Source of the DNA: Bacteroidales bacterium
Lineage (GTDB): Bacteria > Bacteroidota > Bacteroidia > Bacteroidales > Muribaculaceae
DNA: 64,000 bases
Direction of reading: 5' to 3'
NCBI GenBank assembly: GCA_014800735.1
Contig: JAAVFP010000012.1
Location: 43,692-107,691, forward strand
Of the stretch, positions 28,716 through 33,681 are shown piece after piece (the stretch's first letter is position 1; every line of letters begins with the position of its first letter). The position numbers were made by a program, and so were the translations under genes. Below the pieces are notes generated by a model, which was not told where the DNA came from, made no database searches, and worked only from the letters and a program-made list of their open reading frames with translations.

Positions 28716-29639
28716 TCACGCGCCTGCAGCCTCTCGGCGCATTTTCATGTAAAGCTGGCCTGAGTTGATGATATTCTGCCACAGGATGTAGGCCGCCGGG
28801 CCCACGGACGAGATGGAGTCGAAGTAGGTGAGGCAAATCCAGATGGCGAGCACTGTGTTCTTCTGCCCCAGACCCTGCCCGCCGGACACAGGGTCGCCGT
28901 TGCGCCGCCCCACTGCGCGGCCCAGTGCAAACTGCCCTATGCACACCAGCAGCGCAAGCACTGCCATCATCACCATTTCGGGTATGGTGCTCGGCGGCTC
29001 GGCAAGCACAAAGCTCACTGCCCGACCCACAACAACCAGCAGCGACACGGCCCAGAGGTAGAACGATACTGCCTGTACCCCGGCGATTGCACGGTGGATT
29101 TTCGGCGCAGTGAAGTAAAGCAGGAATGCCACCAGCAGCGGCAGCACAATCAGCGGACCCACGGCAAGGGCGATATCCATAAAGCGGGCAAAGAAATCAA
29201 AGTCATCAGCATCGCCTCCGCCAACCCACAGGAACAGTACCGGGGCCACCAGCGCCACGGCAAGATTGCTCACGATGGAGTACGTCGCCACCTTGGGGAT
29301 GCTTCCGCCAAGCATGCCCGTGACCACCGGTGCGGCAGTGGCCGTGGGGCAAAGCACGCAAATCATCACAGCTTGCGCCAACGGCAAATCAAGCGGCCTG
29401 AGAACGCAGAAAATTGCCACCGAACCTATCAGCTGCACGGCCAGAAGTTCCCAAATCATCTTGCTGACGCGGAACTCCGTGGGCTTCACACGGCAGAATG
29501 TAATCATAAGCATGGTGAAAATCAGATACGGCACAACCCACTGAATCATGCTTATCTGATTGTGGAACAAGATGCCCGACACTATCGCAATGGGCAGCAT
29601 CCACGGCTTGAGCCGCTGGCGGAAAGAACTACTTGGCAT
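28716..29639 (-). CDS. Bile acid:sodium symporter-family transporter
   Basis: Hydrophobic throughout; CPTATAAPVVTGMLGG. Start MPSSSFRQ at 29639 preferred because a TAATTTTG box covers 29661-29668. Confidence 0.8.
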   Translation of the reverse strand: MPSSSFRQRLKPWMLPIAIVSGILFHNQISMIQWVVPYLIFTMLMITFCRVKPTEFRVSKMIWELLAVQLIGSVAIFCVLRPLDLPLAQAVMICVLCPTATAAPVVTGMLGGSIPKVATYSIVSNLAVALVAPVLFLWVGGGDADDFDFFARFMDIALAVGPLIVLPLLVAFLLYFTAPKIHRAIAGVQAVSFYLWAVSLLVVVGRAVSFVLAEPPSTIPEMVMMAVLALLVCIGQFALGRAVGRRNGDPVSGGQGLGQKNTVLAIWICLTYFDSISSVGPAAYILWQNIINSGQLYMKMRREAAGA

Positions 29640-29660
29640 ATACGTATTGGAAATTTCGCA

Positions 29661-29668
29661 CAAAATTA
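29661..29668 (-). promoter_or_regulatory. -7 box for the symporter gene
   Basis: Minus strand TAATTTTG. Confidence 0.5.
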
Positions 29669-29686
29669 CAAAATCTCCGGGAAAAC

Positions 29687-30259
29687 TCAGAATTTATCCA
29701 CCGCCTTCCACATGTCGGAATATGACTCACCCAAGTGCCCGAAAGTTGTGGCACGCTTATAGGCGACTGTCATGTTGTCCCCTTGAATAAGCCACTGGAA
29801 CCATTTGTCACGTTTAAGATACTGTTCTTTTTTATCAAAATCCGTCAGATATTTTCTCAATAACTCTATCACTTTGGCCGATGTGCCGAAAAAACGGTTC
29901 GTGTTTTCAAAATGGAGCAACAGCCAGTATTCTATCGAGGGCATGCTACTGGCAATGACAACTTTCGGATGACTGTCGTACTTCCGGTGAATTTCATCCA
30001 TACGCCGTTTCTCCGTTTCGTTCCATTGACTGACATCCTCATCAAACACACAGATAACAGTCGCGCCCGAGTTCAACCCATCGGTGATACGGGTCTGGAT
30101 TGTCTGCATTGATTCGTCACCGAACAGACTCGGTTTGAGAACATAACCGTATCCCATGAACTTCTTAAGATGCTTCAAGTACCAATACTCGGTGATACCT
30201 GCACCCACAATTATCGTGCGCGGTTGTCGGGTGTCCTTAGTGTTGACTTTGCGTGCCAT
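29687..30259 (-). CDS. RloB-like protein (TOPRIM-like nuclease candidate)
   Basis: IIVGAGITEYWYLKHLK (motif Glu), VICVFDEDVSQWN (DxD-like), SMPSIEYWLLLHFENT typical of RloB. Confidence 0.85.
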   Translation of the reverse strand: MARKVNTKDTRQPRTIIVGAGITEYWYLKHLKKFMGYGYVLKPSLFGDESMQTIQTRITDGLNSGATVICVFDEDVSQWNETEKRRMDEIHRKYDSHPKVVIASSMPSIEYWLLLHFENTNRFFGTSAKVIELLRKYLTDFDKKEQYLKRDKWFQWLIQGDNMTVAYKRATTFGHLGESYSDMWKAVDKF

Positions 30260-30262
30260 ATC

Positions 30263-31462
30263 TCAGCCAATAATTTCAGGCAGCGCTCCAAACATTCCGT
30301 TGCGGTAAGCTCTGTCAAGATGGGTGATTTTATTCAAGCCTTTGAACTCGACAAGCGAGTAGAGATGTGTCACACCCGCTTTATCTTTCTCCGTGAACCA
30401 TATGTTATCTTTTCGGATAAGGTCGTCAACGGTCTTGAGCAAGCCGTCGTAGTGCGTGGTTACAAGCAATTGACTGGCTGAAGATTCGAGCAGAAATTGC
30501 TTGAGGATATATTCCATAAGGTCTGGATGGAGAGAGGCGTCCATTTCATCAATCATCAGGAAGGATTCACCGCGGGTAAGCTCGAACACAGCTGCCTCAA
30601 CACCAAGCACACGGCGCGTGCCGTCGCTTTGGTGTGCAAGATTCATTTCGTACATTTCGCGCCCGCGATTATTTTCCACCGTATGTTCAAAACTTATTTT
30701 TTTCACTCCTTGACTATCAGAGCTATCGTTCAGGCCCGTAATATTAAAGTCCGCAGTTCTGAGGAAATCAAGCATATAAGCCCGGAAGTTCTCATCTTCT
30801 CTCAGAATTCGGCTCGCAAAGCCCGTCATGTTCGTATCAGGATAGATTGTCGGCATGAAGCCGCTGTTGATCCACTTGCGGATTTGGTCCAAATGCTCGA
30901 ACTTCATATTCACACGACCACGAGCCGCGAATACCGACATATTAGGAAGGCAGTTAAGCGAAAGCATTTTCAGTGCTTCCGCATCAATCTTCTGCACGGC
31001 GGAGTTAATCCGTATGACAGAAGCCTCCCCATCCATACTTCGCTCAAAAACCATGATCGGCTGCACTGTCTTGTAGTAGGATAGTTTTTCGAAAGCCACC
31101 CTACTGCCGGTGAGGATAAGCTGGTACCAATACCGCACCCCGTCAATCCAAATCTTTAGACTGAATTCCGACGGCTCCGCAGGAGTATCCCGGTCAAGGA
31201 GGAACGGCTCAACGCCTGTCGGCACATCCATATTAGCAGGGTTGGCGGTCCAGAATTTATAAAGCCACTCAAGAGCATAGATCAGATTACTTTTACCGCT
31301 GGCATTGGCTCCAAACACCACTGCGAGGCGCAACAAGCGGGAGCCGTTCGGCATCGTAACTACATGGCTGCTCTCGATACTCGTGTCGTTCGTGGCTTCG
31401 AACGATAATGTTGTTTCATCCTTGAAGGATAAAACATTCTTGAACGAAATCTCCTCTATCAT
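30263..31462 (-). CDS. RloA-like AAA/ABC-type ATPase
   Basis: Walker A VVFGANASGKSN, signature-like HQSDGTRR, Walker B FLMIDEMDASLHPDL. Start MIEEISFKN at 31462. Confidence 0.9.
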   Translation of the reverse strand: MIEEISFKNVLSFKDETTLSFEATNDTSIESSHVVTMPNGSRLLRLAVVFGANASGKSNLIYALEWLYKFWTANPANMDVPTGVEPFLLDRDTPAEPSEFSLKIWIDGVRYWYQLILTGSRVAFEKLSYYKTVQPIMVFERSMDGEASVIRINSAVQKIDAEALKMLSLNCLPNMSVFAARGRVNMKFEHLDQIRKWINSGFMPTIYPDTNMTGFASRILREDENFRAYMLDFLRTADFNITGLNDSSDSQGVKKISFEHTVENNRGREMYEMNLAHQSDGTRRVLGVEAAVFELTRGESFLMIDEMDASLHPDLMEYILKQFLLESSASQLLVTTHYDGLLKTVDDLIRKDNIWFTEKDKAGVTHLYSLVEFKGLNKITHLDRAYRNGMFGALPEIIG

Positions 31463-31468
31463 ATTTAA

Positions 31469-31542
31469 CAATTCTATTTCTGCAAAATTAGCAAAAACTT
31501 CCAAAATACAAAATAGAATTGCTGCATATATCAATTCTATTT
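31469..31542 (-). promoter_or_regulatory. RloAB promoter region with three operator-like 11-bp repeats
   Basis: CAATTCTATTT at 31469-31479 and 31532-31542, AAATAGAATTG at 31511-31521; minus strand -7 TAATTTTG at 31483-31490. Confidence 0.75.
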
Positions 31543-31549
31543 AAAAAAA

Positions 31550-31580
31550 TTCAGGCCCGGTGGAGTACACCGAGCCTGAA
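31550..31580 (-). terminator. Intrinsic terminator for the 31601..32740 gene
   Basis: Minus strand TTCAGGCTCGG...CCGGGCCTGAA followed by TTTTTTT. Confidence 0.85.
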
Positions 31581-31600
31581 CTATGGTCAAAGTCTTGCTT

Positions 31601-32740
31601 TTACTGGTCCACGGGGCCGTTGTAGGCGGCGGTTACGGTGTGGGGAGTAGTGGCGTTGTCCTTGAGCGTAATCTTCATGTTGATTTTGCTCAGCTTGGTG
31701 CAGTCCTCAAGTACTTCCACGGTGCCGCTCACAAGCGGGTTGATGACGGTGCCGTAGTCGGTGTTGTACCAGCAGCCATAATGAATCTTGCCGTAGGTAC
31801 CCTGCACGGTGAAGGGATATACAAGCAGTGTGTTGTTAGCGGCGAAGTTCTCTGCAGTGCGGGCTTTGAGCTCGTAGGTGCCGGCGGGGATGATGACCGA
31901 GGTGTTCTCGGTGCTGTTCACAGCGAAGCCAACCTGCAGGTACTGGTCGTAGTCGTCGTTGGTGTAGCAGTCGAACTGGTAGTAGGTGAAGTCGGGTTCG
32001 TCAACGAACATCTTGCCATAGTCGCTCACAAGAACGTAGTTGATGCTGAGTGTCTGGTCGGCGGTCAGCGAGGATTCCGGCAGAGGGAATTCTTCGGCGG
32101 GATCCTTCTCGGAGCTTACGTTGTCAATGCTTATATAGCCCACGTAGGAGAACTCGAAGTCCTCGCCGTTTTCAAGTTCGAGAGTACCGGCCACGGTGTA
32201 ATTGTTGCCCTCACATTCGATGGTGAAAGTGCCGCCGTCCACCAGCACCAGGCTTTCCTTGTTGGTCATGTCGCGCGTTACGATAAACGTTCCTCCCACG
32301 CCCATCTGCTGGTCGGGACCCTGCTCAATGATGCCGGGGTGGAACTTGAAAGGCTCCAGCGTTTCGCCGTCGCCGATGGTGTAGGTACCGGCTTCGAACT
32401 TGAGGTCATGGTAGTCCGCGGCATTGCTCATGAACTGAAGATAGAGGAAAGTGTTGGGCACACCTTCGTCCCAGATTTCACGCTCGGTGAGCTCAATCTG
32501 GAAATTGGCCACGCCATCGGTAGTGCCGAAATATGTGCCGGCAGCGCCAAGCATGTTACCGCTCTGCACGGGCTCGGTGGGGTCGGTCACACCTTCGGGG
32601 AGTTTGAAAGTTGCGTAGTCCACTTCCTCGGTGCTGTATTTTGCCACTACCTTATCGCCTTTCACCAGGTAGATGGTTTCCTCGGCTGCCGCAGCAATGA
32701 CGCTCAGGGCGCAGGCGGCTGCTATGATATGCTTTTTCAT
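31601..32740 (-). CDS. Secreted protein of unknown function
   Basis: Signal peptide MKKHIIAAACALSVIAAAAEE. Confidence 0.7.
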   Translation of the reverse strand: MKKHIIAAACALSVIAAAAEETIYLVKGDKVVAKYSTEEVDYATFKLPEGVTDPTEPVQSGNMLGAAGTYFGTTDGVANFQIELTEREIWDEGVPNTFLYLQFMSNAADYHDLKFEAGTYTIGDGETLEPFKFHPGIIEQGPDQQMGVGGTFIVTRDMTNKESLVLVDGGTFTIECEGNNYTVAGTLELENGEDFEFSYVGYISIDNVSSEKDPAEEFPLPESSLTADQTLSINYVLVSDYGKMFVDEPDFTYYQFDCYTNDDYDQYLQVGFAVNSTENTSVIIPAGTYELKARTAENFAANNTLLVYPFTVQGTYGKIHYGCWYNTDYGTVINPLVSGTVEVLEDCTKLSKINMKITLKDNATTPHTVTAAYNGPVDQ

Positions 32741-32749
32741 TGGATATTC

Positions 32750-33250
32750 TTACTGTTTGATGATTTTTACTGTGAAATTGCCCACGGCCACTATGCACAC
32801 TCCTGCGGGTGCGTTGCCGAGGTCGAGAGTGAGAGTGCCGTCGGAGCAGCGGCCCGATGCAGCGAGCTGACCGCCGATGGTGTAGACACGCACTTCGGTG
32901 CCCGGTTGTGCGCCGGCGATGTTGAGTGTGCTGCTTACTGTTTTAGGCCACACTGCTATGTTGCCTTCGCTGGTGATGAAGCTGATGCCGGACAGCGGGC
33001 TGCCGAGCATGATGCGGTCAACATCGGCATAGGCAAACTCCTGGCTCTGCCCCGAGGTGCCGACCACTTCAACATCGGAGCTACCGAAGTTGATGCGGTC
33101 CACCTGTGCAAGCTCAATCTCGTAGCTCGTGCCATCGGCCTTGACCACAATCACCCCGACACCCTCGGCAGCCTGCGCAGCGAGTACCCCGCTTGCCAGG
33201 GCAAGTGCTGCAAGAGCTGCCTTTGCGTAAGAAATGAATTGGATTTTCAT
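32750..33250 (-). CDS. Secreted protein with T9SS-type C-terminal sorting domain
   Basis: Ends TEVRVYTIGGQLAASGRCSDGTLTLDLGNAPAGVCIVAVGNFTVKIIKQ. Start MKIQFISYAKAA at 33250. Confidence 0.75.
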   Translation of the reverse strand: MKIQFISYAKAALAALALASGVLAAQAAEGVGVIVVKADGTSYEIELAQVDRINFGSSDVEVVGTSGQSQEFAYADVDRIMLGSPLSGISFITSEGNIAVWPKTVSSTLNIAGAQPGTEVRVYTIGGQLAASGRCSDGTLTLDLGNAPAGVCIVAVGNFTVKIIKQ

Positions 33251-33274
33251 GACTGGTGTTTTTGATTTATGCCA

Positions 33275-33282
33275 CAAAGATA
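33275..33282 (-). promoter_or_regulatory. -7 box for the T9SS-domain protein gene
   Basis: Minus strand TATCTTTG. Confidence 0.65.
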
Positions 33283-33419
33283 CACATTTGTTTTGAATTG
33301 ACAATAAAACAAGACAGGGCCACTTCTCACGAAGTCGCCCTGCTGCGTTTTAAAAACTTAAAACAATTACATAACTAACATAAAACACATTTATCGTATC
33401 GACTATTACAGACTGAAAA

Positions 33420-33546
33420 CGTCGCCCGAAGTCCGGGCGGCGATTCAGTTCTTTATAATGTTCGAAAATTGTTCATTAAGTACTAACAATCTATACTAAC
33501 CCTAAAAACTGAATAAATACTATGTGCTTTTCTGATTACAAAATTA
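33420..33546 (-). ncRNA. Candidate small RNA between mutL and the T9SS-domain gene
   Basis: Minus strand -7 TAATTTTG (33539-33546), about 90 nt without a long ORF, then CGCCGCCCGGACTTCGGGCGACG + TTTT terminator (33420-33442). Confidence 0.5.
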
Positions 33547-33681
33547 CAACCGCCGGACGCGTTTTGCAAGCGTCTAAAAATCCAATATAAAATAATCTAA
33601 ACATTACTTCTCTGATTTACAGAGGAATAATGCTTAGATTGATATGGCAAAATCTAAACCCTTACAAAGGCTTGCAAGGCA

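Follow-up and report, generated by a model that had tools for sequence, protein, structure and literature searches.

A two-gene pair on the minus strand of the window (the whole stretch of 64,000 nucleotides that was analysed) is, as judged by its profile matches, a new member of the known AbiL system, and its effector appears to represent a previously undescribed active-site variant, in which the canonical TOPRIM glutamate of motif 1 is replaced by alanine (Ala20) and an acid, Glu49, is found in the loop after beta-2. We consider, with a probability of about 0.55, that the pair is a horizontally acquired AbiL-type abortive-infection module, carried by a member of the Muribaculaceae, with an active nuclease, one metal ligand of which has been relocated to Glu49. 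Herewith we infer a defence function for the pair, nuclease activity for its effector and a metal-ligand role for Glu49.

The open reading frame of the ATPase, starting with ATG, is followed by that of the RloB-like protein (Table 1), and the spacer between the stop of the former and the start of the latter comprises three nucleotides, GAT (TGA-GAT-ATG), in line with the sequence-only reading of this DNA. The start of the ATPase was picked by the promoter and by alignment with relatives (L081-L083), and is most likely ATG 31462 rather than TTG 31534, since a perfect Bacteroidota promoter (31512-31483) falls within the longer reading frame. The previously proposed beginning of the module near 31534-31542 belongs to this inflated ORF and had to be corrected. 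The promoter pattern TTTG-N18-TAnnTTTG occurs five times in the window, compared to 0.53 occurrences expected. This promoter and a terminator at 31582-31548 agree with the earlier statement that the neighbours are separate and have signals of their own. Both ATPase motifs pointed out from the letters, GANASGKSN and DEMDASLHPD, were recovered as Walker A and Walker B/D-loop; an ABC signature (QSDGTRR) and an H-switch (TTHY), which had gone unmentioned, are present as well.

Table 1 Features of the AbiL-type locus and candidate functional residues of its two proteins (positions in the window)
Feature	Position	Strand	Basis
Intrinsic terminator of the upstream unrelated gene (31601-32740)	31548..31582	-	15-pair stem, 5-nt loop, T-run
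Bacteroidota-type promoter of the operon, TTTG-N18-TAATTTTG	31483..31512	-	Exact match, 20 nt upstream of ATG 31462
AbiLi/RloA-like ABC (OLD-type) ATPase, predicted sensor/lock, 399 aa	30263..31462	-	PADLOC AbiLi 2.4e-70, AAA_21 3.3e-28, AAA_15 3e-10
Walker A GANASGKSN, residues 51-59	31286..31312	-	Intact, also in relatives of both RloB types
ABC signature QSDGTRR, residues 278-284	30611..30631	-	Sequence motif
Walker B/D-loop FLMIDEMDASLHPD, residues 301-314	30521..30562	-	Contains IDEMDASLHPD
H-switch VTTHY, residues 334-338	30449..30463	-	Sequence motif
AbiLii/RloB-like TOPRIM protein, predicted nuclease effector, 'GAG' subfamily, 190 aa	29687..30259	-	PF13707 1.8e-16, AbiLii 1.4e-16
Ala20 (GCA), canonical TOPRIM motif-1 Glu position	30200..30202	-	Ala in all 43 GAG-set sequences, Glu in all 48 nearest GEG relatives
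Glu24, +4 acid of motif 1 (= BpOLD E404)	30188..30190	-	Pattern EGxTE and PMC6755086
Glu49, proposed replacement metal ligand	30113..30115	-	Acid in 49/49 without position-20 acid, in 2/113 with it
DxD, Asp73 and Asp75 (FDED)	30035..30043	-	162/162
SxE, Ser108 and Glu110 (= TsOLD S478/E480, BpOLD T506/E508)	29930..29938	-	E110 162/162; PMC7049728, PMC6755086
Lys143, candidate catalytic Lys (BpOLD K562; equivalence by sequence pattern)	29831..29833	-	159/162

AbiL is a bicistronic abortive-infection system of Lactococcus. That the pair is RloA/RloB-like, as proposed earlier, was confirmed by HMM searches: the ATPase matched AAA_21 and AAA_15 of Pfam and, best among PADLOC profiles, AbiLi (PDLC02335, 235 bits), AriA being far weaker (9.4e-28); the second protein matched RloB (PF13707, 61.3 bits with a gathering cut-off of 31.5) and, as its best PADLOC profile, AbiLii (PDLC02337), the best stretch covering only positions 24-84 of the 170 of this profile. 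NCBIfam gave a name for neither protein. The suggested link to PARIS did not hold, and this identity was rejected, as the RloB protein had no match to AriB or DUF4435 (PF14491) at E-values up to 1; by these matches the locus is an AbiL-type pair, not PARIS. A DUF4435 (AriB-like) domain does occur in the family, within one ORF of about 530 aa that is found in 70 of 79 family genomes, usually in one copy (e.g., G000:C4:2481-3092 and L230-L259); this ORF is a near-core gene, not a patchy defence gene.

The gene order, with an ABC-ATPase followed by RloB/TOPRIM, is that of AbiL from Lactococcus lactis (AbiLi and AbiLii; RloA/RloB), and it was also seen at the related loci viewed. The NetFlax study describes AbiL as an ATPase with an OLD_TOPRIM toxic effector and relates it to RloB by HHpred (PMC10440598). 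Unlike RloBs of the GEG/CEG type, the effector in the window lacks the motif-1 glutamate and has GxE/GxD after beta-2, a type confined to Bacteroidales in the samples searched. PARIS (AriA and AriB) likewise consists of a split OLD-type ATPase and a TOPRIM effector and is a plausible mechanistic model for the pair, with the ATPase sequestering the nuclease until a trigger arrives (PMC12409363), but AriB requires what is probably the glutamate which the window protein lacks. The OLD nucleases (BpOLD, TsOLD, P2 OLD and Gabija GajA) share with this RloB the pattern EGxxE/D, DxD and SxE (TxE) and keep coming up among structure matches of RloB models. In contrast to them, the TOPRIM of the window is a separate polypeptide, its motif-1 glutamate has given way to alanine, and the pair has no helicase or reverse transcriptase partner.

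By textbook criteria, TOPRIM enzymes are marked by a glutamate directly after beta-1, and 'dead' controls in work on OLD and PARIS are obtained by mutating this residue. RloB relatives of the window protein read IIGEGxTExxYF, with this glutamate conserved; the OLD proteins compared at motif 1 read FIEGDTER and MVEGDAEN. GAGITEYW of the window protein had been taken for the Glu motif, but the position of the family's canonical glutamate (the E of GEG) is occupied by Ala20, and the glutamate in ITE is the +4 acid, not the TOPRIM signature. The earlier view of the protein as TOPRIM-compatible stands in its outline, the +4 acid, DxD and SxE all being present, but not with regard to the signature glutamate.

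Alanine is found at position 20 in 43 of 101 aligned relatives; a private mutation or an assembly error was rejected, as the residue is common to these 43 sequences from many assemblies. By their labels, almost all assemblies with the GAG type are Bacteroidales or Bacteroidota; a few titles of MAGs name other phyla and were taken for mislabels. Among the loci examined in the phylum samples, no GAG-type protein was found outside Bacteroidales. Glu24 is invariant in both types except for one unreadable residue (X) and one G. Values of omega between GAG relatives ranged from 0.04 to 0.31, pairs of the window RloB with its closest relatives being excluded for saturated dS, which points to purifying selection; pseudogene decay was rejected on these values and on the intact reading frames. 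A third, small group of RloBs (L008, L076, L077 and L192) has the glutamate of motif 1 replaced by glycine (SGGxxTE). An acid equivalent to position 49 is again present in this group (YFGDES in L192).

In BpOLD, metal A is bound by E400, D455 and D457 and metal B by E404, T506 and E508, with K562 assisting (PMC6755086); the catalytic residues of TsOLD are E377, D381, D431, D433, S478 and E480 (PMC7049728). Aligned by pattern, these OLD ligands would correspond to A20, E24, D73, D75, S108, E110 and perhaps K143 of the window protein. With the exception of position 20, these predicted catalytic residues show little or no variation in the GAG type; the acid-20 type keeps them too, apart from S108, which varies; Asp73 and Asp75 of FDED, described earlier as DxD-like, are retained by every RloB that could be scored. 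The AF2 model of the protein (pLDDT 90.6, pTM 0.86) has the expected beta-alpha order, with beta-1 at residues 15-19 and a helix starting from 51, and therefore places A20 directly after beta-1 and E49 directly before the helix that follows beta-2. Foldseek searches of the PDB with GAG and GEG models returned no significant match (best E-value 0.02); the top ten include the OLD-family Toprims 6njx, 6njv, 6p74 and 8j4t, with a best E-value of 0.03 among them. A profile sequence search of the PDB gave no meaningful match, and hhalign gave none against small OLD and DUF4435 alignments, which were full-length and too shallow. In the literature searched we found neither a solved structure nor a described mechanism for RloB/AbiLii.

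The GAG type has a single new conserved acid, at position 49, which is glutamate or, in one Paludibacteraceae branch, aspartate. It is situated two residues after Gly47, which is present in all 43 sequences of the GAG set. Toprims possess an invariant glycine after beta-2 (PMC6755086), and Gly47 would fit this residue. In the first set of 101 sequences, an acid at 49 was found in all 47 without an acid at position 20 and in none of the 54 with it. The broader set comprised 165 distinct RloBs realigned to the profile, 162 of them scorable: 49 had the acid at 49 only, 111 at 20 only, two at both positions and none at neither, the two double cases being distant sequences of uncertain alignment. 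Clustering at 60% identity left 15, 55, one and zero, respectively. Among 17,205 column pairs, 20-49 ranked third by APC-corrected mutual information. In roughly half of the GEG sequences, the residue that directly precedes position 49 in this loop, position 48, is acidic.

How often this exchange took place is less clear from the tree, whose backbone has little resolution; all three groups lacking the position-20 acid could form one clade, and a common origin of their sequences was compatible with the AU test (p 0.42). The association may therefore stem from one or two events, and the changes at 20 and 49 may have been inherited together from a shared ancestor rather than arisen by repeated compensation. 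An independent-pairs test had no power, with one pair only on supported branches.

It is unlikely, in our view, that the GAG subfamily has given up TOPRIM catalysis and serves as a partner that binds nucleic acid or has a regulatory role, leaving the ATPase as the effector. Its change from glutamate to alanine is of the type that inactivates AriB, where E26A is described as a Toprim mutant (PMC12409363) and E26 is probably equivalent to position 20 of the window RloB; the equivalent substitution in P2 OLD, E398A, abolished killing in vivo (PMC7049728), and the Toprim of E. coli YbjD/OldB is dispensable (PMC13261556). However, E24, the DxD, E110 and K143 have remained invariant or nearly so across a deeply diverged subfamily, and a new invariant acid is found at 49; in a protein without catalysis, the DxD should have been lost too.

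We also doubt that the protein is an ordinary AbiL effector for which the +4 glutamate and the DxD suffice, with the motif-1 glutamate dispensable and E49 a non-catalytic marker of the lineage. BpOLD tolerates E400A alone in vitro (PMC6755086), so that compensation for the lost glutamate may not be needed, and a single origin of the changes would suit this explanation. Nevertheless, other markers of the lineage drift (W26 is kept in 38 and W79 in 40 of 43), whereas the acid at 49, E or D, is found in every member, and none of the sequences scored is devoid of both acids. Rather than a pseudo-nuclease or a dispensable glutamate, we prefer an active nuclease whose ligand has been relocated, because of the low omega values and the effects of the P2 OLD and AriB substitutions, despite the behaviour of BpOLD.

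The pair is horizontally acquired, and the earlier proposal of a discrete acquired unit was borne out by its patchy distribution and by its absence from a conserved junction in relatives; neither outcome named beforehand as speaking against the proposal, a lack of RloB/TOPRIM similarity or strict presence at this locus in all relatives, was observed. The gene order MutL-SBF-CRP is conserved in relatives of the genus, where the SBF transporter gene (28716-29663) is present in 48 of the 49 genomes sampled, and the pair is absent between MutL and SBF in all four relatives that have a contig spanning both flanks. Three of them (G018, G020 and G029) have one other gene in this gap and the fourth (G030) has none, MutL being adjacent to SBF. 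The junction (L218, L220, L221 and L223) is variable in content: three relatives have an ORF of about 515 aa there, one has nothing, and the window (29664-33681) has AbiL and two lipoprotein-like genes.

When the RloB protein was used as the query, 22 of 146 genomes proved to contain relatives; within the genus, the GAG type was seen in the window genome and in none of the other members searched. Close relatives (L081-L083; 65-69% identity for RloB, 72-75% for the ATPase) lie in different genomic surroundings. Across the 15 loci viewed, the unit always consists of the same two genes, and its neighbourhoods are unrelated; a third operon gene replacing the nuclease was rejected, as no recurring neighbour was seen there. 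The two genes were rightly described as AT-richer than their neighbours (GC of 0.48 and 0.46 versus 0.567 for the window; GC3 of 0.56 versus about 0.69-0.80 in neighbouring genes), but this dip is not unique: further 1-kb segments below 0.50 GC are found near 11.5-13.5, 27, 33 and 53.5-54.5 kb, and AT-richness by itself is therefore no proof of acquisition.

Carriage by phages was rejected, as no RloB match was found among 50,697 phage records; plasmid-borne relatives were distant ones only. The sole viral contig found with an RloB relative (L161, IMGVR_UViG_3300031992_003450) gave a weak and partial match. The GAG and GEG types of AbiL coexist in one MAG (CANPMT010000003.1, L082, and CANPMT010000013.1, L143) and may therefore differ in triggers or targets. 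GEG-type AbiL proteins of five loci (L003, L099, L109, L117 and L127) are about 96-97% identical across differently named genomes, which suggests recent transfer. At another locus (L159:4590-8027), a GAG-type AbiL adjoins apparent type I restriction-modification genes; the original rlo genes are likewise located beside such genes.

It is highly improbable that the two proteins are an ATPase/TOPRIM pair of the OLD type with a host function, like that of archaeal Cran1: some OLD-family ATPases serve the cell cycle (PMC12796447), but the patchy presence of the pair, with the GAG type in only one of the genus members searched, the acquisition at a core junction and the homology to AbiL speak against it.

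For an AbiL-type module with a relocated ligand, analogies to PARIS and further OLD systems suggest the following course of action. The ABC-ATPase would keep the TOPRIM protein inactive and sense a phage product; upon infection, it would release or activate the TOPRIM protein, which would stop the infection by two-metal-ion cleavage of nucleic acid, either tRNA or DNA. The Bacteroidales subfamily would have given up the glutamate at the end of beta-1 (Ala20), with Glu49 after beta-2 providing the missing metal ligand and the remaining catalytic set (E24, D73, D75, S108/E110 and K143) retained. An anti-phage function of the pair is a prediction from homology. At odds that we would put slightly short of even, the metal-binding acid that stands at the end of beta-1 in standard TOPRIMs has been moved into the loop behind beta-2, and this relocation became fixed and was retained by selection in a lineage of phage-defence nucleases, possibly altering the substrate or evading phage inhibitors of the standard site.

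No description of the GAG active-site variant was found in the literature searched, which consisted mostly of papers open without subscription. A conserved lineage of AbiL effectors lacks the motif-1 glutamate, keeps the other catalytic residues and has an acid at 49; motif-based calls of 'inactive' TOPRIM domains in defence genes can therefore be wrong. In this module of a gut bacterium, a neighbouring acid seems to have taken over the job of a lost catalytic one. The GAG lineage amounts to a natural experiment on the metal ligands required by a two-metal TOPRIM nuclease, and is a practical entry point for the study of AbiL.
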